DNA of 62,450 bases, from positions 1 through 62,450 of the forward strand of contig JANDLU010000010.1 of assembly GCA_024330215.1 (NCBI GenBank). Reading direction: 5' to 3'. Each line of letters opens with the position of its first letter. Position 1 is the stretch's first letter. The notes below the pieces were generated by a model. The model was not told the DNA's origin. It did no database searches and saw only the letters and a list, made by a program, of their open reading frames with translations. This document shows positions 9,723 through 59,992 of the stretch, one piece after another. The stretch comes from Candidatus Gaiellasilicea maunaloa (GTDB taxonomy: Bacteria; Actinomycetota; Thermoleophilia; Gaiellales; Gaiellaceae). A program made the position numbers and the translations under genes.

Positions 9723-11834
9723 TCACCGGTTGCGGTTGCGCGCCGCCGCGACCCGGCGCGAGCGCACCCTTGCTCGGCGCTGCAAGTTCACCTGGTGGTT
9801 GTGCGCCCGCTCGCCCTTCGAGGGTGCAAGCCGTGTCCAGATGCCGTCTGCCGCGAGCTCCCAGGAGGCGGTGTTGTCCGCGAGGGCGCTGTCGAACAGG
9901 GAGACCACCTCCTGCCGCAGTCGAGGCTGCTCGACCGGCACGAGCACCTCGATCCTCCGGTCGAGGTTGCGCGTCATCAGGTCGGCGCTGCCGAGGTAGA
10001 GCTCGACCGCATCGTCGATCTCGAAGGCGTAGACGCGGCTGTGCTCGAGATAGCGGCCGATGATCGAGCGGACGCAGATGTTCTCGCTCAGACCAGGGAC
10101 GCTGGGGCGCAGCATGCAGATCGAGCGCGAGACGATCTCGATTCTCGCGCCCGCGCTCGAAGCCGCGTAGAGCTCGTCGATCAGCGCCTGATCGGTGAGC
10201 GCGTTGACCTTGATCCGGATCCGGCCTCGCTTGCCCTCCGCGGCGGCGTGGGCCACCGCTCGGATCCGCTCGACGAGCCGCGCGCGCAGATTGAACGGCG
10301 CCACCAGGATCTTCTCGAAGCGGACGGGCCGGCCGAATCCCGTCAGGTAGTTGAAGAGCGAGGCGACGTCGGTCGCGATCTCCGGATCGGCCGTGAAGAG
10401 GCTGAGATCCTCGTAGGACCGCGCCGTCTCGGCGTGGTAGTTGCCGGTGCCGACGTGGACATAGCGGCGGAGCGTGTCGCCCTCCCGCCGGACGACGAGC
10501 GTCATCTTCGCGTGCACTTTCAGGTCGGGGAAGCCGTAGACGACGTGGACTCCGGCCTGCTCGAGCGCGCGCGACCACTCGATGTTCCGGTGCTCGTCGA
10601 AGCGCGCCTTCAGCTCGACGAGGCAGACGCTTTGCTTCCCGTCCTCCGAACAGGCGATCAGCGCGGGGACGAGCGGACTGTCGCCGCTCGTCCGGTAGAC
10701 GGCCGTCTTCATGGCGATCACGTCGGGGTCGCGCGCGGCGGCGCGTACGAAGGCCTCGAAGCTCGTCGCGAACGACTCGTACGGCTGGTGGACGAGGAAG
10801 TCGCCGCGACCGATCTCGAGGAAGAGGTCGCGCGGTTGCTTCGCCCGCACGAGCCGCGGTGCGGTCGCACCCGGGGTCGACTCGTACTTCAGCTCCGGAT
10901 GGTGCAGCCCCGTCAGCTCGTCGAGATCGGCCAGGTCGAGAGGACCGTGGATCTCGTAGACCTGGTCGTCCTCGACGTCGAGGCCCTGCTGCAGCCGCTC
11001 GAGCATCCCGCGCGAAGTCGAGCTCGAGGCCTCGAGGCGGACGACGTCGCCGAAGCGGCGGCGGCGCAGCTCTAGCTCGACCGCCTCGAGCAGGTCGTCG
11101 GCCTCGTCGGAGACCTCGAAGTCGGCGTCGCGGGTAACCCGGAAGACCGAGCGCTCGACGATCTCCATCCCGGGGAAGAGCCAGTCGAGGAAGTGGCCGA
11201 GCACCTGCTCGAGCGGGACGAGGCGCCCCCGCGAGCCGACCGTCAGGAAACGCGGCAGGCCCTCGGGCACCTTGACGCGCGCGAAGCGCTCCTCGCCGGA
11301 CTCGGGGTCGCGGGCGAGGACGCCGAGGCTGAGCGAGAGCCCGGAGATGTACGGAAACGGCTGTCCCGGCCCCACTCCGAGCGGGGTCAGGACGGCGAAG
11401 ATCTCGCGCTCGAAGCGGCTCTCGAGCTGCTTCAGCTCGCCGGCGTCGAGCTCCGACAGCCGCGCGACGACGATGCCCGCCTCGGCGAGGGCCGGTCGCA
11501 GCTCCTTCTTCCAGATCCGCGCCTGGCGCTCGGTCAGCTCCCGCACGCGGTCGCGGATCGCGAGAAGAGCCGTCTCGGGCGCCAGGCCATCGGCGGAGTG
11601 GACGACGACGCCGGCAGCGGCCTGACCGAGCAGTCCGGCGACTCGGACCATGAAGAACTCATCGAGGTTCGAGGAGAAGAAGCGGCACATCTTCACGCGC
11701 TCGAGCAGGGGCACGCTCGGATCGGCGGCGAGGTCGAGGAGCCGATCGTTGTACTCGAGCGCGGAGAGCTCCCGATTCAGAAGTCGGGCGGTCACCTCGA
11801 TGTCGCGCTTCGACTTTCTCGTCTCGGCTGCCAT
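9723..11834 (-). CDS. ppk1: Polyphosphate kinase 1
   Basis: Reversibly transfers the gamma phosphate of ATP to growing polyphosphate chains at the membrane. 703 residues, normal for PPK1. NRELSALEYNDRLLDLA and MCRFFSSNLDEFFMVRVAG are the N-terminal domain signatures. YVHVGTGNYHAETAR contains the histidine that becomes phosphorylated in this family, and RGRIRIKVNALTDQALID belongs to the C2 domain. The frame extends upstream of ATG 11834 into noncoding DNA, but homology begins there. The upstream ATP-grasp gene ends 78 bases before, on the same strand. With ppx, CYTH-CHAD and Nudix it forms a compact polyphosphate cluster. Confidence 0.95.
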   Translation of the reverse strand: MAAETRKSKRDIEVTARLLNRELSALEYNDRLLDLAADPSVPLLERVKMCRFFSSNLDEFFMVRVAGLLGQAAAGVVVHSADGLAPETALLAIRDRVRELTERQARIWKKELRPALAEAGIVVARLSELDAGELKQLESRFEREIFAVLTPLGVGPGQPFPYISGLSLSLGVLARDPESGEERFARVKVPEGLPRFLTVGSRGRLVPLEQVLGHFLDWLFPGMEIVERSVFRVTRDADFEVSDEADDLLEAVELELRRRRFGDVVRLEASSSTSRGMLERLQQGLDVEDDQVYEIHGPLDLADLDELTGLHHPELKYESTPGATAPRLVRAKQPRDLFLEIGRGDFLVHQPYESFATSFEAFVRAAARDPDVIAMKTAVYRTSGDSPLVPALIACSEDGKQSVCLVELKARFDEHRNIEWSRALEQAGVHVVYGFPDLKVHAKMTLVVRREGDTLRRYVHVGTGNYHAETARSYEDLSLFTADPEIATDVASLFNYLTGFGRPVRFEKILVAPFNLRARLVERIRAVAHAAAEGKRGRIRIKVNALTDQALIDELYAASSAGARIEIVSRSICMLRPSVPGLSENICVRSIIGRYLEHSRVYAFEIDDAVELYLGSADLMTRNLDRRIEVLVPVEQPRLRQEVVSLFDSALADNTASWELAADGIWTRLAPSKGERAHNHQVNLQRRARVRSRRVAAARNRNR

Positions 11835-11911
11835 CGATCCATCTTCCGCTCGGGCTCGAGCGGCCGAGTCTCGATCCGGTGTGCGGGGTGTGAACGTTTG
11901 GAGAAGAAGCG

Positions 11912-12823
11912 CTACGCCTCGAGCGGCGCGGCCTCGACCGGGAGCACCGGGAATGCCGGTCGCATCCGGCCCGAGGGCTCCTGCGGGCAGCCGAGCGCTC
12001 GGCGCGATAGCTCCCAGGCGGCTGCTGCGAAGGGGTCGCGATCGAGGGCGTACTCGGCGGTGAACTCGACCGCCCCGTTCAGCTCCAGGACGGTGTAGCC
12101 GCCGGTGCCGTCCGGGAGAAGGTCGACACCGAGCAACTCCGCTCCCGCTGCGGCGGCTGCCCGAAGCGCGAGCTCGCAGGCGAGCTCGGGCGGATCGACC
12201 GCGACGCGCGTGGCGCCGAGCGCGACGTTCGTCCGCCACTCGCCGGGCGCGCAGCTGCGGGAGATCGCGCCGACGACCGTCCCGGCAGCGACCACGATCC
12301 GCAGGTCGTGCCCGCGAGGCGGGATCAGCTCCTGGACGAGTGCGCCGTGGGCGCGGAACCAGACACGCTGCTCCAGCTCGCGGACGTGCCGGCCGAGCGC
12401 CTTCGCGTCTCGGCAGCGGACGACATCGCGGCCCCAGCTGCCGAAGCGCGGCTTGACGACGACGGGGCCGTCGAGCAGCGGGAGCGGCCGGCCGGCGGTG
12501 AGCAGGCGTGTGCGCGGATGCGGCAGACCCGCGCGGAGGAGCAGTCTGGCCGTGAGCAGCTTGTCGTGGGCGGCGAGCAGGGCGCTCGCGCGATTCATGG
12601 TCTGGACGCCGTGCGCAGCGAGCGAGCCGAGCGCCCAGAGGCCGTCGTCGACGCCGTCGAGAGTCTCGAGCACGTCGAGCCGGCCGAGCACCGCGTCGCC
12701 ACGCTCCACCGTCTCCAGCGCCTGCTCGGGAGTGAGGACGCGGATGTCGACTCCGCGCGGCGCCGCCGCGGCGAGGGCGAGGTTGGTCGGCGTCGAGTGC
12801 TGGGCGACGAGCGCGAGCAGCAT
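11912..12823 (-). CDS. RimK-type ATP-grasp ligase
   Basis: 303-residue ATP-grasp protein that would ligate a carboxylate to an amine or thiol through an acyl-phosphate. The pre-ATP-grasp domain is followed by VVVKPRFGSWGRDVVRC (ATP-binding lysine and glycine loop, about residue 130), a basic PPRGHDLRIVV block and the metal-binding VLELNGAVEF near residue 255. This pattern fits RimK/LysX/GshB relatives. No LysW-like carrier protein or ribosomal S6 context is near, so the substrate cannot be named. It sits upstream of ppk1 on the same strand, but the 78-base gap leaves operon membership open. Confidence 0.8.
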   Translation of the reverse strand: MLLALVAQHSTPTNLALAAAAPRGVDIRVLTPEQALETVERGDAVLGRLDVLETLDGVDDGLWALGSLAAHGVQTMNRASALLAAHDKLLTARLLLRAGLPHPRTRLLTAGRPLPLLDGPVVVKPRFGSWGRDVVRCRDAKALGRHVRELEQRVWFRAHGALVQELIPPRGHDLRIVVAAGTVVGAISRSCAPGEWRTNVALGATRVAVDPPELACELALRAAAAAGAELLGVDLLPDGTGGYTVLELNGAVEFTAEYALDRDPFAAAAWELSRRALGCPQEPSGRMRPAFPVLPVEAAPLEA

Positions 12824-12942
12824 GGCCCCTCTATGCCATGCGGATCGGCGCCCGGCAAGGGCCGGCGCCCACCTCGCCGCCGGTCGTTCACCAGTTGGAG
12901 GGACCTGCTCGGCGCGGCGCGACGGTTCGTCCAGTCAGACCG

Positions 12943-14004
12943 CTAGTCGGCGAGCGCTTCCACGAGGAGGCCCTGGAAGTGGGCGATCAGGCGCTCGGAC
13001 TCGGGGAGCAGATGCCCATGCTCGAGCCCGCCGCTGCGCAGTCCCTTCTGCGCTCGCTCGATCAGCACGACGTCCTCCGCCCCGACCTGGTCGTCGAACG
13101 CGAGCATCTCCTCGAGCCAGGCCGCGTCCACGTCTGGCCCGACGTAGTAGTCGAGGAAGCGTGCCGTCGTCTCGACGCCGGTCGGGACGACGGGGCCGAT
13201 CGAGAGGTTCGGGTGGCCGGGCATGACGTTGATCGTTGCGTTCGGCCAGAAGAAGTGGAACTGACCGCGCGCGACGGGGCCGCGCGGGTCGAAGTCGCCC
13301 GACCAGCGCTCCCGCACCGGCCCGAGCTGCGTCGAGAACCAGCGGCTCGGCTCGAGCACGTAGGCGTCGGCGGAGACGTCGACGACCTTCGAGAAACCCG
13401 GATGGGCGACCTGGCAGTGATAGCACTCGAGGAAGTTCTCGCAGCAGACCTTCCAGTTCGCCTCGTAGGTCGAGTGCACGCGCTTCAGGAAGCGGAGCGC
13501 GCCGAGGTCGAGCCCGGCGGCTGCGACGAGCCGCGGCAGCTCGCCGAGCGTCGCGGCGAGCGGCGCGGCGGCGGGATCGGGATTGACGAAGACGAACGGC
13601 CCCCAGGCATCGACCTGCACGGGTCTGAGTCCGAGCTCCGACCGGTCGAAGGCCGCCTCCCGGTCGGCGCGCGGCGCGGCTCTCAGCGAGCCGTCGAGCT
13701 CATATGTCCAGGCGTGATAGGGGCACTGGAGCGTCTCGCGCCGGCCCTCGCCCTCGCAGACGAGCGAGCCTCGGTGACGGCAGACGTTCAGGAACGCCCG
13801 TAACTCCTCGTCTCTCCCGCGGACGACGACGATGGGGATCCCACCCGCCTCGCAGGCGAAGAAGGAGCCTGGCGCGGCGACCTGGTCGGCGCGGCCCGCG
13901 TACTGCCAGGTCCGGCGGAAGATCCGGTCGCGTTCCTGCCGGAGGACGGCCGGATCGGCGTACCAGTCGAAGGGAATCGTGCGTACGTTCGCGACCGTCG
14001 CCAT
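12943..14004 (-). CDS. Rieske aromatic-ring-hydroxylating oxygenase alpha subunit
   Basis: 353-residue non-haem iron oxygenase alpha subunit. The Rieske cluster motifs are NVCRHRGSLV and QCPYHAWTYELDG. The mononuclear iron site is in NFLECYHCQVAHPGF, which gives the usual two histidines, with a downstream acidic ligand likely in FDDQVGAEDV. The family ranges from ring-hydroxylating dioxygenases to choline or carnitine monooxygenases and sterol oxygenases; PFVFVNPDP and the compact C-terminus resemble the choline monooxygenase-like group. No beta subunit, ferredoxin or reductase gene is adjacent, so partners must be elsewhere. The substrate is unknown. ATG 14004 is the only plausible start. 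Confidence 0.88.
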   Translation of the reverse strand: MATVANVRTIPFDWYADPAVLRQERDRIFRRTWQYAGRADQVAAPGSFFACEAGGIPIVVVRGRDEELRAFLNVCRHRGSLVCEGEGRRETLQCPYHAWTYELDGSLRAAPRADREAAFDRSELGLRPVQVDAWGPFVFVNPDPAAAPLAATLGELPRLVAAAGLDLGALRFLKRVHSTYEANWKVCCENFLECYHCQVAHPGFSKVVDVSADAYVLEPSRWFSTQLGPVRERWSGDFDPRGPVARGQFHFFWPNATINVMPGHPNLSIGPVVPTGVETTARFLDYYVGPDVDAAWLEEMLAFDDQVGAEDVVLIERAQKGLRSGGLEHGHLLPESERLIAHFQGLLVEALAD

Positions 14005-14013
14005 GCGAGGAAT

Positions 14014-14435
14014 CTAGACGTCGCGGTAGCGCGCCTGCACGAAGCACCAGAGCGAGTAGGCGATCAGGCCGACGGCGACGGCGCCGAGCAGGAAGCCCCC
14101 GTACGGCTGCTGCGAGAGCTCGAGCAGCGCGCCGTGGAGCCCGCGCGTCTCCTTCGAGTCGAACTCCCAGGCGGCCTTCAGGAGGAACAGGCCGATCGGC
14201 GCGAACACGACCGTGCGCGCGAGGTGGCCGAGGACGCCGACCCCGGTCGCCGCCTTCTCCTCGGCCTCGCTCATCTCGCCCTGCTTCAGCTTCTCGTTGA
14301 ACTTGCAGGTGACGGCGCGGTAGCCGTTGAACGCCGCTGCGGCCAGGAAGCCGAGTCCGGCCGCGTAGACGAGGTAGCGGCCGGCCGGAAGGTCGAAGAC
14401 GCCCGCCGTCGTCTTCTTCTCGTTGCCGCCGCCGC
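14014..14435 (-). pseudogene. DUF1206 membrane protein, N-terminal part missing
   Basis: The C-terminal part of a DUF1206 protein. GRYLVYAAGLGFLAAAAFNG and the segments around TVVFAPIGLFLLKAA and GFLLGAVAVGLIAYSLW are the paired hydrophobic helices of the last one to two repeats. Complete family members have three two-helix repeats and about 260-280 residues; only about 140 are here. Homology ends at GGGNEKK near 14430, and the frame then runs into DNA that codes, on the opposite strand, for the end of another gene. There is no start codon or ribosome site at the junction. The product, if any, is unlikely to be functional. Confidence 0.7.
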
Positions 14436-14441
14436 GCCGCG

Positions 14442-14555
14442 CGGGAGGACACCGCGGAGCGGCTGCGGGGGATGTACGAGTTTCGGCTGAGCCGCTTCTC
14501 GGCGCGCTTCGACGACGGCGAGGACGGCGCGATCGAGGAGCGCTCGGCGGCCTAG
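14442..14555 (+). pseudogene. C-terminal remnant of an unidentified gene
   Basis: An open plus-strand frame ends at TAG 14553-14555 and reads REDTAERLRGMYEFRLSRF then an acidic tail. It has the charged composition of a real C-terminus and no start of its own. It begins exactly where the DUF1206 remnant stops. I do not recognise the family. Confidence 0.4.
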
Positions 14556-14614
14556 CTCTTCCCGTACGAGGCGATGTGCCTACAGTCGCGGGTTCCTCGG
14601 TCGATAAAGAGGTC

Positions 14615-16093
14615 ATGGCCTTCTTCCTTCTGCGCTGGTGGGCGCCTTTCGTCGCGACGACCGGCTCCGCCTTGACGATCCTCTCGCTGGGCCCCGCCCG
14701 CGACGCCGTCTGGTACCACCCGAGACTCGCGTTCGTCGCCGTGCTCGTGCTCACCGCAGCCTGTGCCGTCGGCGCCGCGCTCGTGCTCGCCGTCGGCTTG
14801 ATCCGGCGGCTGCCGGAGGTGGCGCTGCTGGGAAGCGCTCTTTGGGTCGTGTCGGTGCTGCCGATGGTCCACGGCCTCCTGCTTCCGGGTCACCTGTACG
14901 GGCCCAACCCGGGCACGCTGGTCGCGGTGATGGCCGCGGTCCCCGCCGCGCTCCTCGCCGGTCTGCCGCTCCTGCTCGACGGAACCGGAGCGGGGTTGTG
15001 GCTCGCCCGACGCTGGTGTTCGTGGGCGTGCTCCTGGGCGGCCCTGGCCGCGATCGGCGGCGCTGCGCTCCTTCTGTGGCCGAACCGGCTTCCTGCGCCC
15101 GCGGGCGGGTGGACAACGGCGATCGTCGCCGTCAGTATCGGGGGGACCGCCGTCCTGTCGTTGCGCCATCTTCGCCTGTTCGCGATCGGCAGACGTGCGG
15201 GCTCGCTGCTCGTATCGTTGGGCTTCATCGCCCCGGGGCTGGCCACGATCGCCTTCCTCGGCGCGGCTCCCCTGTCGCCCGGCTGGTGGCTGGCACACCT
15301 GATCGACGCTGTCGGCGTACTGTTCGCCGCGGCCGGCCTGCTCTGGATGCACGGACGGGACCGGTCGCTCGCTCTCGTGCTGCGCCCGGTGCTCACGCGG
15401 GAGCCGCTGGTCGCGCTCGAGCTCGGTCTGACGCCGGTCGTGCACGATTTCATCGCCGCGCTCGAGCGCAAGGACCCCGTTACGCGCAAGCACGTCGTCC
15501 GGGTTGCCGAGTTGGCGATGCGCTCCGGAGAACGCGTCGGTCTCGACGGAGTGTCGCTGCGCGCTGTCGGCCTGGGCGGCCTGCTCCACGACGTGGGCAA
15601 GCTCCTGACGCCGGAGGCGATCCTGAGCAACCCGGCCGCGCTGACAGCCCATGAGCGCACGGTGATCGAACGCCACCCAGTAGACGGCGCGGCCATGCTC
15701 GCGCCCTATCCGCACCTCCGAGAGGCGGCTGCCGTCGTGCGCGCCCATCACGAGCGGCCCGACGGGACCGGGTATCCCGATGGGCTGGCGCGTGCGGAGA
15801 TCTCCTTCGCCGCCTCGATCGTCAGCGTGGTCGACGCGTGGGATGCGATGGTCAGCGACCGGCCCTACCGTGCCGGCCTGCCGATCGAGCGCGCCGAGGC
15901 GATCCTTCGGGAGGGTGCCGGCGCACAATGGCTCCGCGCCGCCGTCGACACGGTGCTCTCGGAGCTGCACGCTGCTGGACCCGTCAGCGTGCCCCGCCTC
16001 ACGACCGCCGGACGAGCGCCCACGCACGCGATGGCGCGCTCCGAGGACGACATCGTCGACGCCTGCTTGCCGGCGCTCGCAGGGGCCGACTAG
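14615..16093 (+). CDS. Membrane HD-GYP domain protein
   Basis: 492-residue protein with about eight predicted membrane helices in residues 1-260, followed by an HD-GYP domain (about 290-460). The metal-binding and catalytic signatures are GLLHDVGKLLTP (HD), then HHERPDGTGYPDGL, which holds the GYP motif, and VVDAWDAMVSDRPYR. Complete HD-GYP domains usually degrade cyclic di-GMP or cGAMP-type messengers, or act as HD phosphohydrolases; the extra motifs are intact so activity is plausible. ATG 14615 follows AAAGAGG at 14606-14612; the frame is open upstream but noncoding in character. The membrane part is not a known sensor domain, so the input signal is unknown. Confidence 0.88.
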   Translation: MAFFLLRWWAPFVATTGSALTILSLGPARDAVWYHPRLAFVAVLVLTAACAVGAALVLAVGLIRRLPEVALLGSALWVVSVLPMVHGLLLPGHLYGPNPGTLVAVMAAVPAALLAGLPLLLDGTGAGLWLARRWCSWACSWAALAAIGGAALLLWPNRLPAPAGGWTTAIVAVSIGGTAVLSLRHLRLFAIGRRAGSLLVSLGFIAPGLATIAFLGAAPLSPGWWLAHLIDAVGVLFAAAGLLWMHGRDRSLALVLRPVLTREPLVALELGLTPVVHDFIAALERKDPVTRKHVVRVAELAMRSGERVGLDGVSLRAVGLGGLLHDVGKLLTPEAILSNPAALTAHERTVIERHPVDGAAMLAPYPHLREAAAVVRAHHERPDGTGYPDGLARAEISFAASIVSVVDAWDAMVSDRPYRAGLPIERAEAILREGAGAQWLRAAVDTVLSELHAAGPVSVPRLTTAGRAPTHAMARSEDDIVDACLPALAGAD

Positions 16094-16150
16094 CGCGCGC
16101 TAGCCCGACGTTCCGCTCCTGCACCCCGGCGAGGCGATAATCGTCCAGAG

Positions 16151-16483
16151 ATGGCCGCCGTGCTCGAGATCCGCACCTACACGCTGAAGGCCGGTTGCGG
16201 CGCGGAGTTCCATCGCCTCGCGCTCGAGGAATCGCTGCCGCTGCTGGAGCGCTGGGGCGTCGAGGTCGTCGCCTCCGGCCCCTCGCTCGACGACGCCGAC
16301 TCGTACTACCTGATCCGTGCGTATCCGAGTCTCGCCGCGCTCGAACGGAGCCAGGACGCGTTCTACGGCAGCGACGAGTGGCGCCAGGGCCCGCGCGAGG
16401 CGATCGTCTCCCTGATCGAGAGCAGCAGCTCGGTCGTCCTGCCTCGGGCCGCCTTCCGGCTCGATCCGCAGCCCGGCGGATAA
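16151..16483 (+). CDS. NIPSNAP-family protein
   Basis: 110-residue protein with the ferredoxin-like NIPSNAP/dimeric alpha-beta-barrel fold. LEIRTYTLKAGCGAEFHRL, PLLERWG, SYYLIRAYPSLAALERSQDAFY and WRQGPREAIVSLIESS match the family closely. Its biochemical role is not established in bacteria. It lies 22 bases upstream of an MFS exporter on the same strand, and its ATG 16151 is well placed. It is probably cotranscribed with the exporter. Confidence 0.85.
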   Translation: MAAVLEIRTYTLKAGCGAEFHRLALEESLPLLERWGVEVVASGPSLDDADSYYLIRAYPSLAALERSQDAFYGSDEWRQGPREAIVSLIESSSSVVLPRAAFRLDPQPGG

Positions 16484-19002: not shown

Positions 19003-20136
19003 ATGGTGGAGCGCCTGAGTCCCACCCTCAAGGCCGTCAGCGATGCCGTGCTCGCGGTCGCGGCCGGTCTCTCGGTCGACGAGGTCCTGCAGCGGCTCGT
19101 CGACAGCGCGCGCGAGCTCGTCGGGGCGCGGTATGCCGCGCTCGGGCTGCCTGACGGGGAGGGTGGGTTCCGGCGGTTTCTCACCTCGGGGATGAGCGAA
19201 CGGCTGGTCGCGTCGCTCGGGCCGCTGCCGCGGCAGCACGGCATCCTCGGCGCCATGCTCGACGTCCGCTCGCCCTACCGCACGCAGGACATCCACGAGC
19301 ACCCGCGCTTTCGCGGCTGGTGGCCCGCCGCGCACCCGGACATGCACTCCTTCCTCGGCGTGCCGATCCTCGAGCCGCCCGCCGTGATCGGGGCCTTCTA
19401 CCTGACCGAGAAGCTCGACGCGACCGACTTCAGCGACGAGGACGAGGAGCTGATCGGCCTCCTCGCCGCTCACGCCGCGATCGCGATCGCGAACGCCCGC
19501 CTCCACGAGCAGACCCGGGAGCTCTCGATCGTCGCCGAGCGGAACCGGCTCGCCCTCGACCTCCACGATGCCGTCAGCCAGAAGCTCTTCGGGCTCGTGC
19601 TGAGTGCCGAGGCCGCGGCGACCCTGCTCGAGCGCGACCCGGAAGCGGCGCGCGGCCAGGTGACGAAGCTTCAGACGCTGGCGCAGGAGGCCCTCGAGGA
19701 GCTGCGCTCGCTCGTCTTCGAGCTGCGCCCGCCGGAGCTCGAGCGCGACGGCCTGCCCGGCGCGCTGCGCAAGCACGTCGAGCTGCTGCGGCGGCTCGGA
19801 CAGCACGAGCTCGAGCTGGTCGTCGACGGCGAGGTTCCCGTCGACGGGACGCGCGACAGAGAGGTGCTGCGCATCGCTCAGGAGGCGCTCCAGAATGCGC
19901 TCAAGCACGCCCGCGCAAGTCGCGTGACGGTGAGGTTGGGCGCCGAGGAGGGCCGGCTCTTGCTCGAGGTCGAGGACAATGGCGTCGGCTTCGACCCGGA
20001 TGCGCAGGAGGCCCGAGGACGCAGCCTCGGGCTGACGTCGATGGAGGAGCGCGCGCGTCGGCTCGGCGGCACGCTCGCGATCGTCTCGACCTCCGGCGCG
20101 GGTACCACGGTGCGCCTGGAGCTCCACGATGGCTGA
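19003..20136 (+). CDS. GAF-domain sensor histidine kinase (NarX/HisKA_3 type)
   Basis: Soluble histidine kinase of 377 residues. Residues about 20-180 are a GAF domain (ELVGARYAALGLPDGEGG to AAHAAIAIANARL). The dimerisation and phosphoacceptor helix is ERNRLALDLHDAVSQKLFGL, the HisKA_3 type, with His near residue 191. The ATPase has LRIAQEALQNALKHA (N box) and VEDNGVGFD (G1 box). There is no membrane segment, so it senses a cytoplasmic signal, possibly redox or a small molecule as in DevS/NreB relatives. ATG 19003 is preceded by AGAGGGAG. Its 3' end overlaps the response regulator by eight bases, so the two form a coupled two-component system. Confidence 0.92.
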   Translation: MVERLSPTLKAVSDAVLAVAAGLSVDEVLQRLVDSARELVGARYAALGLPDGEGGFRRFLTSGMSERLVASLGPLPRQHGILGAMLDVRSPYRTQDIHEHPRFRGWWPAAHPDMHSFLGVPILEPPAVIGAFYLTEKLDATDFSDEDEELIGLLAAHAAIAIANARLHEQTRELSIVAERNRLALDLHDAVSQKLFGLVLSAEAAATLLERDPEAARGQVTKLQTLAQEALEELRSLVFELRPPELERDGLPGALRKHVELLRRLGQHELELVVDGEVPVDGTRDREVLRIAQEALQNALKHARASRVTVRLGAEEGRLLLEVEDNGVGFDPDAQEARGRSLGLTSMEERARRLGGTLAIVSTSGAGTTVRLELHDG

Positions 20137-20776
20137 GAGCATCCGCGTCCTCGTCGTCGACGACCACGCGGTCGTTCGCGAGGGCCTGCACACGTTCCTC
20201 GAGCTCCAGGAGGGAATCGAGGTCGTTGGTGACGCCGTCGACGGCCGGGAGGCGGTCGAGACGGCCGTGCGGCTGCGGCCCGACGTGATCGTGATGGATC
20301 TCGTGATGCCGCGACTGGACGGCGTGGCGGCCATGCGGGAGCTGCGCGAGAGTCTTCCGGAGGCCCGGGTGATCGTTCTGACGAGCTTCCTCGACGACGA
20401 CAAGCTGCTCCCGGCTCTGCGGGCCGGCGCCGCCGGCTATCTGCTGAAGAACGCGCAGCCGCGGGAGCTCGCGCGCGCGGTCCGCGCAGCCCACGCCGGC
20501 GAGACGTTGCTCGACCCGATCGTCGCCGCGCGGCTCGTCGAGACGCTCGCGGCTGCCGGCGAGGAGGAGCCGCTTGACCGGCTCACGTCGCGCGAGCGCG
20601 AGGTGCTGATCCTGATCGGCCGCGGCTTTCCGAACAAGCTGATCGCACGCGAGCTGGGCCTCTCCGAGAAGACCGTCAAGACGCACGTCTCCCACGTGCT
20701 GGCGAAGCTCGGCGTCACCGACCGGACGCAGGCGGCCGTGCTCGCAGTCCGCGCCGGCCTCGTTCCGAGGTCCTAG
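20129..20776 (+). CDS. NarL/LuxR-family response regulator
   Basis: 215-residue cognate regulator. The receiver domain has VLVVDDHAVV (acidic pair), VIVMDLVMPRLDG with the phosphoacceptor Asp, LTSF and LLKNAQP (conserved Lys). The LuxR DNA-binding domain begins LTSREREVLILIGRG and has the recognition helix LSEKTVKTHVSHVLAKLGV. The pair resembles LiaR/DevR-type regulators. Targets are not visible, although the palindrome just upstream of the kinase gene is a candidate for autoregulation or control of the divergent transporter. Confidence 0.93.
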   Translation: MAESIRVLVVDDHAVVREGLHTFLELQEGIEVVGDAVDGREAVETAVRLRPDVIVMDLVMPRLDGVAAMRELRESLPEARVIVLTSFLDDDKLLPALRAGAAGYLLKNAQPRELARAVRAAHAGETLLDPIVAARLVETLAAAGEEEPLDRLTSREREVLILIGRGFPNKLIARELGLSEKTVKTHVSHVLAKLGVTDRTQAAVLAVRAGLVPRS

Positions 20777-20845
20777 GACCAATTGCGCCTGGCGCTCGGG
20801 CCCGAGCCGCGGCCATCCTGAGGGCAGCGACGAAAGGAGATCTCG

Positions 20846-21202
20846 ATGAGCACGCCACCAATGGCGGGGACGGCAAGCGAGCAGATCGCGGCGGAGGTCA
20901 CCTCCTGGTCCGGTGTGGAGGCCGGCGTCGGCCAGCGCGGTGAGTTCGGCTTCACCGTCGGCCGGAAGGAGATCGGCCACCTGCACGGCGACCACGCGCT
21001 CCATCTCGGCTTCCCGAAGCCTGTCTGGGCCGATCTTCACGCCCAGGGGCGGATCGACTATCACCCGGTGTTCCCCGGCAAGCCGGGCTACGCCGCGCGC
21101 AGGATCGAGAACGAGGCCGATATCCGTGACGCGATCGCGCTGCTACGGCTCAACTACGACCGGGTCGTGGCGCGCCACGGCGTGCCCGCCGAGGCGGCCT
21201 GA
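20846..21202 (+). CDS. Luciferase-domain (DUF5519) protein
   Basis: 118-residue protein matching the small luciferase family domain once annotated in Mycobacterium and Streptomyces proteins. EFGFTVGRKEIGHLHGDHALHLGF and WADLHAQGRIDYHPVFPGKPGYAARRI are the family hallmarks. ATG 20846 has GAAAGGAGAT upstream. Despite the name, no light-producing activity is shown for this family and its function is unknown. The SDR gene starts four bases after its stop, suggesting cotranscription. Confidence 0.82.
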   Translation: MSTPPMAGTASEQIAAEVTSWSGVEAGVGQRGEFGFTVGRKEIGHLHGDHALHLGFPKPVWADLHAQGRIDYHPVFPGKPGYAARRIENEADIRDAIALLRLNYDRVVARHGVPAEAA

Positions 21203-21205
21203 GCC

Positions 21206-21892
21206 GTGAACGGGATCGTCACCGGCGCGTCGCGCGGCCTCGGCTTGGCGCTGACGCGGGCGCTCGCCGAGCGGGGCTGGCGGCTCGTCGTGGACGCACG
21301 CGACGCGGAAGCCCTCGAGCGTGCAACCGGAGGGCTCGACGGTGTCGTTGCGCTTGCGGGCGACGTCGCCGATCCGGACCACCGCCGCCGGCTGGTCGGC
21401 GCGGCCGGCGATTCGATCGACCTCATCGTCAACAACGCGAGCTCGCTCGGCCCCCTGCCACCGCTTGGGCCGCTCCCGGCGCTCGCGGACTATCCGATCG
21501 AGGAGCTGCGCCGGGTCTACGAGATCAATGTGCTCGCCCCACTCGCGCTCGTCCAGCTCGCCTTGCCTCGACTCGGCAAGGGGGCGCGGGTCATCAACGT
21601 CAGCTCGGACGCGGCGGTCGAGGCCTACGAAGGGTGGGGCGGCTATGGGAGCTCGAAGGCGGCGCTCGCGCAGCTCACCGCGGTGCTCGGCGCCGAGAAT
21701 CCCGGCCTCCTTGCGTACGCAGTCGATCCGGGCGACATGCGCACGCGGATGCAGCAAGAGGCGTTCCCGGGCGAGGACATCTCCGACCGGCCGCCGCCGG
21801 AGGAGAGCGTTCCGGGCTTCCTGGCGCTGCTCGAAGGCGATCTCCCGAGCGGGCTCTACCGCGCGCACGAGCTCGTCGCGGCCACGACGTGA
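21206..21892 (+). CDS. Short-chain dehydrogenase/reductase
   Basis: 228-residue classical SDR, NAD(P)-dependent. TGASRGLGLALTRALAERG is the Rossmann cofactor loop at the N-terminus; VNNAS and the catalytic Ser-Tyr-Lys set INVSSDAA and YGSSKAAL are present; VDPGDMRT is the usual PG motif. Arg at the cofactor loop suggests NADPH preference. GTG 21206 begins four bases after the upstream stop. The queA-like gene starts inside its stop codon (GTGA). The substrate is unknown; a function together with the QueA-like enzyme is suggested only by this coupling. Confidence 0.9.
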   Translation: MNGIVTGASRGLGLALTRALAERGWRLVVDARDAEALERATGGLDGVVALAGDVADPDHRRRLVGAAGDSIDLIVNNASSLGPLPPLGPLPALADYPIEELRRVYEINVLAPLALVQLALPRLGKGARVINVSSDAAVEAYEGWGGYGSSKAALAQLTAVLGAENPGLLAYAVDPGDMRTRMQQEAFPGEDISDRPPPEESVPGFLALLEGDLPSGLYRAHELVAATT

Positions 21893-22935
21893 GCTCCGTC
21901 GCGTTCGAGCTGCCGGCGCGGCTCGAGGCGCACGAGCCCCCCGAGGCCCGTGGGCTCACCCGCGACGGCGTCCGTCTGCTCGTCTCCGACCGAGCCGACG
22001 ACTCGATCACCCACGGCCGCTTCGCCGACCTGCCTCGGTTCCTCGCCGCCGGCGACCTCCTTGTCCTGAACACGTCGGCGACCCTCGCCGCGGCGCTGCC
22101 GGCGAGGCGCGCCGACGGCACCGCGCTCGAGCTCAGGCTCTCGACACCGGCCGAGGGCCGGGATCCCGACCGCTTCTGGATCGTCGAGCTCCGCACCGGA
22201 GACGCACCGTTCGGTGCCGTCGAGGTCGGCGAGCGGCTCGAGCTTCCCGCCGGTGGATCGGCTCGGATCCTCGCGCCATACGCAGGCGTGCGGCTGTGGT
22301 TGGCCCGGCTCGAGCTACCCGGACCGCTCGAGAGCTTCCTCGCCGAGCACGGGCGCGCAATCCGCTACGGCTACGTCCCGCGCCGCTGGCCGCTCTCCGC
22401 GTATCAGAACGTGTACGCGGTCGAGCCGGGGAGCGCCGAGATGCCGAGCGCAGGGCGTCCGTTCACCGCCGAGCTGCTCACGCGGCTCGTCGCCGGCGGG
22501 GTTCTCGTCGCGCCCGTCACGCTGCACACCGGCGTCTCCTCGCAGGAGCGTCACGAGCGGCCGTATCCGGAGCGCTTTCGTGTTCCCGAGCAGACCGCGA
22601 GGCTCGTCAACGCCGTTCGTAGCTGGGGTGGGCGGGTGATCTCCACCGGTACGACGGTCGTGCGCGCGCTCGAGACCGTCGCCGGCCCGGACGGCACGGT
22701 CACCGCCGGTGAGGGCTGGACGAACCTCGTCGTCACACTGGAACGTGGCCTGTGGACGGTCGACGGCCTGCTCACCGGCCTGCACGAGTCGGAGTCGTCG
22801 CACCTCGACCTCCTACGCGCCGTCGCCGGCGAGGAGTTACTCGCGCGGAGCTATCGGCAGGCCCTCGAGCACGGCTACCGCTGGCACGAGTTCGGCGACA
22901 GCCAGCTGATCCTCGGACGAAGGAACCGCCGCTGA
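21889..22935 (+). CDS. QueA-like SAM:tRNA ribosyltransferase-isomerase
   Basis: 348-residue member of the QueA family, which transfers and isomerises ribose from SAM to form epoxyqueuosine in tRNA. LPARLEAHEPPEARGLTRDG, LLVLNTSATLAAALPARR, YGYVPRRWPLSAYQNVYA and VTLHTGVSSQ correspond to family blocks, and RLVNAVRSWGGRVISTGTTVVRALET is the conserved core. The motif differs from canonical QueA, where GTFRPV occupies the region read here as HTGVSS, so the protein may be one of the QueA paralogues common in actinobacteria that lack tgt and other queuosine genes. No tgt or queF is in this window. GTG 21889 overlaps the SDR stop by four bases. Confidence 0.82.
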   Translation: MSSVAFELPARLEAHEPPEARGLTRDGVRLLVSDRADDSITHGRFADLPRFLAAGDLLVLNTSATLAAALPARRADGTALELRLSTPAEGRDPDRFWIVELRTGDAPFGAVEVGERLELPAGGSARILAPYAGVRLWLARLELPGPLESFLAEHGRAIRYGYVPRRWPLSAYQNVYAVEPGSAEMPSAGRPFTAELLTRLVAGGVLVAPVTLHTGVSSQERHERPYPERFRVPEQTARLVNAVRSWGGRVISTGTTVVRALETVAGPDGTVTAGEGWTNLVVTLERGLWTVDGLLTGLHESESSHLDLLRAVAGEELLARSYRQALEHGYRWHEFGDSQLILGRRNRR

Positions 22936-23029
22936 CGGACGCCGTGGTCCCGGGCTCCACGCCTCGGCGCTCGCGGCCTTCGATACGTCGCTCAGGATTG
23001 CTTTCCTGCGAGCCGTCGCTCAGCCCGCT

Positions 23030-35939: not shown

Positions 35940-36182
35940 GTGCCTCTCGTCCATTTCCTCATCGTCTTCGACCGGGCCGACCAGCAGGTCGTCACCGCGG
36001 AGCGATTCGTCGATGGCGAGCTCGCCGCGGAACGGTACGCGGCGATGGAGCGCGAGCACGGCAACGAGCCCAACATGGAGATCGTGTTGGTGGGCTCCGA
36101 TTCAATCGAGACAGTACGGCGTACCCACGGCAACTACTTCGGCGACGAAGCCGGATTGCCGTTCCGCGAGCTCGTCAGCTAG
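35940..36182 (+). CDS. Small protein downstream of alarmone synthetase, putative antitoxin
   Basis: 80-residue acidic protein from GTG 35940, beginning PLVHFLIVFDRADQQVVTAE and containing ELAAERYAAMEREHGNEP and EIVLVGSDSIETVRRTHGNY. An in-frame TTG at 35898 would overlap the synthetase gene. The strand-helix-strand pattern suggests a compact alpha/beta fold, but I recognise no family. Its position directly after the synthetase, and its size and charge, fit an antitoxin or accessory protein; that is inference. It meets the ARPP-1 gene tail to tail with an eight-base overlap. Confidence 0.65.
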   Translation: MPLVHFLIVFDRADQQVVTAERFVDGELAAERYAAMEREHGNEPNMEIVLVGSDSIETVRRTHGNYFGDEAGLPFRELVS

Positions 36183-37248
36183 AGCCTTCGCGGCGGCAGC
36201 TGCTCCCCGTCGAGCGCGTTGCCACCTTCGAACGCGCGCGCCGATGCCATTGCTCCATTCCGCGCGCGACGCGCATCAGCGGCGGGTCGAGTGCGAACGG
36301 AGCAAGAGTCACCTCTGATCTTCGCTCACCGGCGCGGCTCGGCCTCGCGATCCGGCCGCTGCGCTCGTCGCCGGTGAAGGCGCAGAGCTGGAGCAGCTCG
36401 GCGTCGAGCTCGAGCCCGGAGCCGACGACGCGTTCGCCGCGGAGCCGCACGTCCTCGCCGAGGCCGGCTGAGTGCTGCCGGGCTCGGGTCGCCGCTCCGA
36501 TCGACTCGACGAAACCGGCCAGCGTGTCTCCGCTCGTGGGTTTCGTGTCGAGCTGCTCGAGCGCGTCGAGCAGGTAGCCGGCACGGAGCTTCGGGAAGAG
36601 GCGTGCGAACGCCTCGGGTCGGGAGACGTAGTCGAGGCAGAGATCGTCGCCAAGCCCGAGCAGGGCGCCGCACTGGCCGGGCTGGAGCGGGAACACCTGC
36701 TCGAGCTCGCGCACGCCGGTCTCCCGGGAGCGGAAGACGTCGGCCTGGGCGCCGGTCGGGGAGTGGACGCCCATCCGGGTGGACTTCGCTCGCACCTCGT
36801 CCCAGACCTCGCTCTGGGCGACTCCGCGGGCGAGCGGTTCGGCGGCGAGCCGGTGCGCCTTCCGCCGCCGCAGCTCTGGGTGCGCCGCGTGCGGTGCGGA
36901 CGCGAAGCTCGCGGAGCGGCGGCTCCAGCGGCCTTCCTCGACGCAAGAGACGGGGATCGGTGTGGTGCTTCGCGCCGCGACCAGCACCGTGATGTTGAGG
37001 ATCCGGTTCTGCTTGGCGCCGAGCAGCTCCTCGCCGTCGTAGAGCAGGACGTTCGCGTCGGTCGGGTTCGTGACCGCGAGCTCGGGCACGACGCCGGCCT
37101 CGCTGACCTCGTCGATCCGGAGGCCGAGCGGGAGCGCATCCTCGAGCGTCGCGTACTCGGCGACCGGCGACTGCCGCGGGAAGAGCGGCGCGATCAGGAT
37201 GCCGCGGTGCTCGACCGCGTCGCCGACCTGAAGGATTGTCGAGAGCAT
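36175..37248 (-). CDS. ARPP-1 domain protein
   Basis: 357 residues. LQVGDAVEHRGILIAPLFPR, then TLEDALPLGLRIDEVSEAG, LAVTNPTDANVLLYDGEELLG and AKQNRILNITVLVAARSTTP, followed by SCVEEGRW, are the conserved blocks of the ARPP-1 domain, named for its association with ADP-ribosylation and Rhodanese/phosphatase genes. Function is unknown; comparative genomics tied it to stress and conflict systems. ATG 37248 is chosen because AAAGGAG lies five bases before it; an ATG at 37329 has none. The ribosome site is inside a hairpin (37251-37276). The last about 60 residues are unusually basic and may be a run-on past the normal end. Confidence 0.8.
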   Translation of the reverse strand: MLSTILQVGDAVEHRGILIAPLFPRQSPVAEYATLEDALPLGLRIDEVSEAGVVPELAVTNPTDANVLLYDGEELLGAKQNRILNITVLVAARSTTPIPVSCVEEGRWSRRSASFASAPHAAHPELRRRKAHRLAAEPLARGVAQSEVWDEVRAKSTRMGVHSPTGAQADVFRSRETGVRELEQVFPLQPGQCGALLGLGDDLCLDYVSRPEAFARLFPKLRAGYLLDALEQLDTKPTSGDTLAGFVESIGAATRARQHSAGLGEDVRLRGERVVGSGLELDAELLQLCAFTGDERSGRIARPSRAGERRSEVTLAPFALDPPLMRVARGMEQWHRRARSKVATRSTGSSCRREGSS

Positions 37249-37250
37249 GT

Positions 37251-37276
37251 GGACTCCTTTCGTTTTCAAGGAGTCC
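37251..37276 (-). promoter_or_regulatory. Hairpin sequestering the ARPP-1 ribosome binding site
   Basis: In the ARPP-1 mRNA, GGACTCCTT pairs perfectly with AAGGAGTCC around the loop GAAAACGA, and the start codon follows two bases after ... AC ATG. The Shine-Dalgarno AAAGGAG is in the 3' arm. A 9-bp stem of this form would block initiation until opened by heat, a protein or a small RNA. Confidence 0.7.
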
Positions 37277-37386
37277 GCGTACCGACCGCCCTTTCTTACG
37301 CGATGACGTTTACTCAACGTACTGAGCAAATTTGCTCAATACCTTGAGAAGTACGGGCTATTACATATTTGTGCTATCATCCCTCG
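37277..37386. promoter_or_regulatory. AT-rich divergent control region with TGAGCAAATTTGCTCA palindrome
   Basis: The stretch between ARPP-1 and XRE genes is AT-rich compared with its surroundings. It holds a perfect 16-bp palindrome at 37323-37338, flanking CTCAA and TTGAG half-sites, and TATCAT at 37375-37380 close to the XRE start. It is the likely operator for the adjacent XRE protein and may also act on ARPP-1. Confidence 0.65.
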
Positions 37387-59707: not shown

Positions 59708-59992
59708 GTGAGCGAGCTGGACGGGACCTGGAACGTCGAGCGGGTGAGCGGCCTCCTGCCGCCGCTCCTCGGCGTGCGCAAGCGAATCGACGGCCCCGGC
59801 GGCCGCACGACCGTCGGTCCGATCCGTGCGCCGTTCGCCGTCGTCGGTCGCGAGCTCCGGTACACCGGTCTGTTCACGGGCTTCGTCGACGTGCTCGAGC
59901 CTGCCGGCGACGGCTGGACGGGACGGGCGCTCTATCGCGAGCGCGAGTACGGCCGCTTCCGACTGACCGCAAGGCGCGCCGAGCCCCGTTGA
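59708..59992 (+). CDS. Conserved small beta-rich protein
   Basis: 94 residues from GTG 59708: ELDGTWNVERVSGLLPPLLG, then VGRELRYTGLFTGFVDVLEP and GRALYREREYGRFRLTARR. Alternating strands with GTW at the start suggest a small lipocalin-like barrel, a common pattern in actinobacterial hypotheticals. Divergent from the ligase gene with 21 bases between starts. Function unknown. Confidence 0.6.
   Translation: MSELDGTWNVERVSGLLPPLLGVRKRIDGPGGRTTVGPIRAPFAVVGRELRYTGLFTGFVDVLEPAGDGWTGRALYREREYGRFRLTARRAEPR

Follow-up and report, generated by a model that had tools for sequence, protein, structure and literature searches.

The window, that is, the whole 62,450-nucleotide stretch of DNA analyzed, comprises the entire contig C190 of a draft assembly of 3.85 Mb in 200 contigs, with an estimated completeness of 97.3% and an estimated contamination of 4.97%. 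The features considered here are as follows.

832 to 1439, no strand assigned: first joint, near 1230, where an arsenite-oxidase small subunit (minus strand) faces an ArsR-type regulator (plus strand)
12943 to 14004, minus strand: Rieske-type oxygenase, intact, directly downstream of the DUF1206 remnant
14014 to 14433, minus strand: DUF1206 membrane protein, C-terminal remnant of about 139 residues, with its stop codon at 14014 to 14016
14434 to 14441, no strand assigned: first break, 8 bases (gcgccgcg) that can be assigned to neither gene with certainty
14442 to 14554, plus strand: CPA1-type Na+/H+ antiporter, interior piece, 37 codons (14442 to 14552) and two shared bases
14554 to 14555, no strand assigned: second break, where a conserved Tyr codon becomes TAG and antiporter homology stops
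14615 to 16093, plus strand: HD-domain protein gene, apparently intact, beginning after a short spacer, with a C-terminal HD domain (HD_5/HDIG-type)

The Rieske-type oxygenase is 59% identical to its counterpart in G019 across residues 1–352 of 353 and 86% identical to that of the same-genus genome G001 across residues 229–353. The open reading frame containing the HD-domain gene matches PF13487 with an E-value of 9.7e-31, as well as TIGR00277, and a same-order relative aligns with the protein over residues 9–443 at 36% identity.

The open reading frame containing the DUF1206 remnant matches PF06724 (E 4.8e-29) with 100.7 bits, well above the Pfam cut-off of 26.2, and in this respect resembles DUF1206 membrane proteins in general. 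One full relative carries three repeats over 263 residues, whereas the remnant consists of repeat 3 and the remainder of repeat 2, with repeat 1 and the start of repeat 2 absent. Matches to the remnant were found in 12 of 40 relatives, seven from the same family at 47–59% identity and five from the same order at 33–46%, and the open frame runs 278–628 codons from stop to stop in 11 of them, the twelfth being cut by a contig end. The initial annotation had placed the end of the minus-strand homology at GGGNEKK, and the alignment with six relatives bears this out, with the N-terminal part gone beyond that motif; the open reading frames of nine relatives align from 14017–14026 to 14409–14433. The loss amounts to 132–163 residues (approximately 130–160), depending on which start codon is assumed for the relative, and the remnant is undecayed right up to the break.

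On the plus strand, the same annotation had described the C-terminal piece of an unknown gene, starting at 14442. The start holds, and the gene can be named as a CPA1-type Na+/H+ antiporter, a family assigned through the one whole relative tested, which matches PF00999 with an E-value of 4.7e-57 and TIGR00831 above cut-off. Relatives of the 37-residue island occur in 11 of the 40 genomes at E <= 6.2e-8 and 57–75% identity, and eight additional genomes gave weak matches only (E 0.1–0.6). Open frames of 526–611 codons hold 10 of the 11 matches; the eleventh, in the draft genome G010, is interrupted by N letters. The piece is not C-terminal, as all 10 aligned relatives run about 45 residues past the stop in the window, and this stop, TAG at 14553–14555, takes the place of a Tyr codon that is conserved except in one relative, which has Phe. 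The island corresponds to residues ~445–481 of a 528-residue relative and sits in the tail past the exchanger domain, which in the relative ends near residue 406. It therefore resembles antiporters of the TIGR00831 type in sequence but contains neither the transmembrane exchanger domain nor the end of the protein; a Pfam search of the piece itself gave no match. At this level of identity, and being in frame, conserved and free of stops and frameshifts, the island displays no pseudogene decay.

With the antiporter piece truncated on either side, the locus holds two breaks, at 14434–14441 and at 14554/14555; 113 bases separate them, and the coding sequence they interrupt is undecayed. The proposal of a head-to-head joint at which both facing ends were lost is thus half right; the facing ends are indeed missing, but the antiporter piece is cut distally as well. 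The last DUF1206-matching base is 14433 and the first antiporter codon begins at 14442, and the first break falls within a stretch made up entirely of G and C. The 18-mer at 14425–14442, which spans this break, has one further copy in the genome, at C1:4961-4978. The octamer CGCGCGGG occurs at or near both joints of the contig (1221–1228 and 14438–14445) and was rejected as a joint signal, since it was chosen post hoc and its 16 copies in the window are fewer than in shuffled sequences (mean 37). A promoter and terminator scan and a repeat search around the joint gave nothing informative.

The missing halves of the two genes were not found on other contigs or contig ends in the readable sequence, a set that leaves at least C100 and C110 outside. 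Searching the whole genome with the DUF1206 N-terminus of a relative returned the remnant itself as the sole match (E 0.0016), and a whole antiporter returned the 37-residue piece together with two distant exchangers on C136, at 28 and 33% identity. Both genes are cut in mid-protein, the antiporter at both ends, and the rest of neither was found in the assembly. No relative of the sequence was found among the viral contigs searched, and a scan of genome contigs, which may leave out records of this genome, gave a single relative (46%) in a different record. The DUF1206 and antiporter genes are adjacent in none of the 12 relative loci compared (5–14 kb each), so gene order is neutral on a deletion between neighbors.

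Our searches came upon a single further genome from the genus, G001, which is 69% complete. Its DNA matches the left flank of the joint at 89% (10426–12900) and 82% (12899–13320) and the right flank at 80–84% (80% over 16093–16443 and 81–84% over 19007–22992), with no match to 13321–16092 at E <= 1e-10. These matches indicate that both flanks belong to one lineage, and a chimera across species or lineages is accordingly unlikely, as judged with 40 of 791 candidates scored. The gene beside the G001 homologue of 16151–16483 differs from that in the window, and G001 carries approximately 1 kb extra at window position 12899/12900. The neighborhood thus varies between species, making G001 uninformative on whether the joint is real. 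The extra segment (G001:C410:2477-3493, locus L108) lies between an ATP-grasp-like gene and the Rieske oxygenase and is absent from the window; by eye it encodes what we take to be nucleotidyltransferase-like and HEPN-like proteins, the combination known from MNT/HEPN toxin-antitoxin pairs.

A direct parallel to the antiporter island is present in G010, where the antiporter gene on contig C89 (locus L029) is interrupted by two 'NN' marks at positions 1361–1362 and 1620–1621. Homology is aligned to residue 360 and continues for a few residues before the first mark, resumes from residue 400 to residue 485, and meets the second. Compared by eye with the relatives, the first mark hides about 33 residues, and the C-terminus seems to resume after the second with perhaps ~30 codons lost, indicating that these gap marks are far too small and that gap sizes in that record are untrustworthy. 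Both genomes hold an interior antiporter island that lacks coding sequence on its two sides, 257 bases long in G010 and 113 in the window, and the right end of the G010 island lies about 4 residues from that of the window island. Deprived of its N letters, the G010 island would resemble the window joint. The two differ in that G010 retains 'NN' at each gap, whereas the window contains no N, and in that the N-terminal part of the antiporter lies on the same contig in G010, whereas no other antiporter part was found in the genome studied here.

The initial annotation had also pointed to the same topology at 1236. A joint near 1230 does exist, but it is not of equal severity, since only short ends are gone. 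The arsenite-oxidase small subunit keeps positions 4–128 of the 129 of TIGR02694, so that its leader region alone can be missing, and the ArsR-type regulator is clipped N-terminally, with its HTH match starting from position 11 of 47. Arsenic-related genes stand on both sides, those on the right including an arsenite methyltransferase (NF008823), which makes a random join less likely there. The milder character of this joint weakens the argument from the same topology occurring twice; a second joint on one contig nevertheless leans toward a common technical cause. The contig end itself (1–1230) places the arsenite-oxidase small subunit near the ArsR-type regulator, an aquaporin-family protein and the arsenite methyltransferase. 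Such an arsenic gene cluster seems rare in the class, as a search of 198 further genomes sampled from it (E <= 1e-15) gave no match to the small subunit.

Broken genes were also sought at 100 homologous places, of which 24 lie in the window (16.9 kb) and the other 76 outside it (73.3 kb), in a small census that is blind to intergenic gaps and does not have the 37-residue antiporter piece among its places. Automatic flags were raised at 55 ends, 12 within the window and 43 outside. Beyond the DUF1206 finding, 18 of these ends were followed up by searching locally for the part they lack, in sets of 11 and 7, the latter being the ends, besides DUF1206, whose missing part matches other relatives. 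Four ends had a clear match nearby (two in L106 and one each in L103 and L107), the nearby match for L088 was weaker, and the L090 gene is whole by eye. The missing part had no local match for the end at 11062 in L101 or for those at 59708 and 15356 in the window. Matches that were weak, short or spread over many frames were all that was obtained at 16131 in L097, 13579, 16479 and 17618 in L098, 9987 in L102 and 8269 in L104, and at 1573, 5417 and 20870 in the window. We judge such ends to reflect shared single domains, over-long open reading frames or differences in gene content, and the other flagged ends to be mostly over-long frames with a non-coding GC pattern. For the DUF1206 break, the local search gave no match to the missing part, and matches to that part in other relatives were the most numerous of all, 28 including overlapping copies, compared with 1–13 for the other seven ends. 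Among the 76 homologous places outside the window (73 kb), no comparable break was confirmed, although several flagged ends are unsettled and the sorting is largely a matter of judgment; that none was confirmed differs from none existing. In the window, the end at 59708 belongs to a stretch (59708–59959) whose 85 residues are 54% identical to the start of a 261-residue open reading frame in G002. No nearby counterpart was found for the other 176 residues, and the stretch is either another clipped gene or the counterpart of one of two genes read as a single open reading frame in G002.

Both explanations offered initially, deletions between divergent genes and gaps closed during assembly or processing, are still in play, and we favor collapsed or closed assembly gaps over a recent true deletion, with a probability of roughly 0.6. 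Some stretches of the DUF1206/antiporter neighborhood would have failed to assemble, the antiporter island of ~113 bases would have been set between the flanking pieces, and both gaps would have been closed to nothing; in the cell, the DUF1206 gene, and possibly the antiporter gene too, would then be whole. We infer that the sequence was lost while the data were being processed, and not by the organism. This reading is favored by two fresh breaks so close together between undecayed remnants, by the parallel in G010, by the missing halves not being found, by flanks of a single lineage, by the all-G+C setting of the first break and by the other joint near 1230 on the same contig. An undecayed island with coding sequence missing on either side, as expected of closed gaps, is what the window holds. 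Against it, the window and 18 readable stretches from other contigs (248,892 bases) contain neither an N run nor a gap mark, leaving no gap visible in the record, and a removal of N runs throughout it is not shown. In addition, the census, weak as it is, confirmed no comparable break in its 76 outside places, and the antiporter C-terminus that by eye seems to resume in G010 does not do so in the window. The region differs from G001 regardless, a difference that real plasticity fits equally well.

A true recent deletion, in which the N-terminal half of DUF1206 and the greater part of the antiporter gene disappeared from the organism itself, is a serious though less likely alternative. Its route would be two deletions, or one end-joining event leaving the 113 bases as filler, in a dispensable and variable stretch of chromosome. 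The assembly that lacks the missing halves is 97.3% complete, and both genes look dispensable, occurring in 12 of 40 (DUF1206) and 11 of 40 (antiporter) relatives, many of whose genomes are incomplete. The neighborhood differs between species, as judged by the ~1 kb extra in G001 and the different gene near its 16151–16483 homologue; no similar break was confirmed in the 76 other places; and end-joining genes exist in the genome, with two Ku matches, and a LigD polymerase domain and an ATP-dependent ligase in the window. As in ordinary deletion remnants, truncated dispensable genes adjoin each other and searches of the genome did not recover the parts they lack; unlike them, neither remnant has decayed and two breaks lie 113 bases apart. 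A deletion would thus require two fresh breaks at that spacing on a contig that bears an additional joint near 1230, and between genes that were never neighbors in the 12 relative loci. A narrower version of this reading, in which the joint is a genuine end-joining scar and the Ku/LigD-type machinery deleted the bulk of both genes but spared the 113-base piece of one, is improbable; if true, it would add one more ordinary case of a known repair process, from a bacterial lineage that has been little studied.

A chimera, joining unrelated pieces that come from elsewhere in this genome or from a second organism present in the sample, is very unlikely: a draft in 200 contigs with 4.97% estimated contamination and the recurrence of the break-spanning 18-mer on C1 speak for it, but G001 matches both flanks at 80–89%, the cut-off halves, expected in the assembly if two loci had crossed, were not found there, and 18 bases of repeat are few for assemblers to overlap on.

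Nothing at the locus points to a new biological system, and neither closed gaps nor a deletion would surprise a specialist. The value of the finding is one of quality control only. Gene calls at 14014–14754 (minus strand) and 14423–16093 (plus strand, in the part before 14615) would be false fusions, and the genome is unsuitable as evidence that DUF1206 or the antiporter has been lost. The lesson from G010 is that a gap mark of two N letters can conceal about 33 codons.

Elsewhere in the window, several genes between 33168 and 47413 have a lower third-position GC content, and the mobile-element genes there are incomplete (a TrwC relaxase covering profile positions 170–285 of 286, a partial IS110 transposase and an integrase covering positions 7–67 of 172), so that the stretch looks like a decayed integrative element. 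Amid this degraded mobile stretch, 36175–37329 encodes an ARPP-1 domain protein (PF20208, E 5.5e-79).
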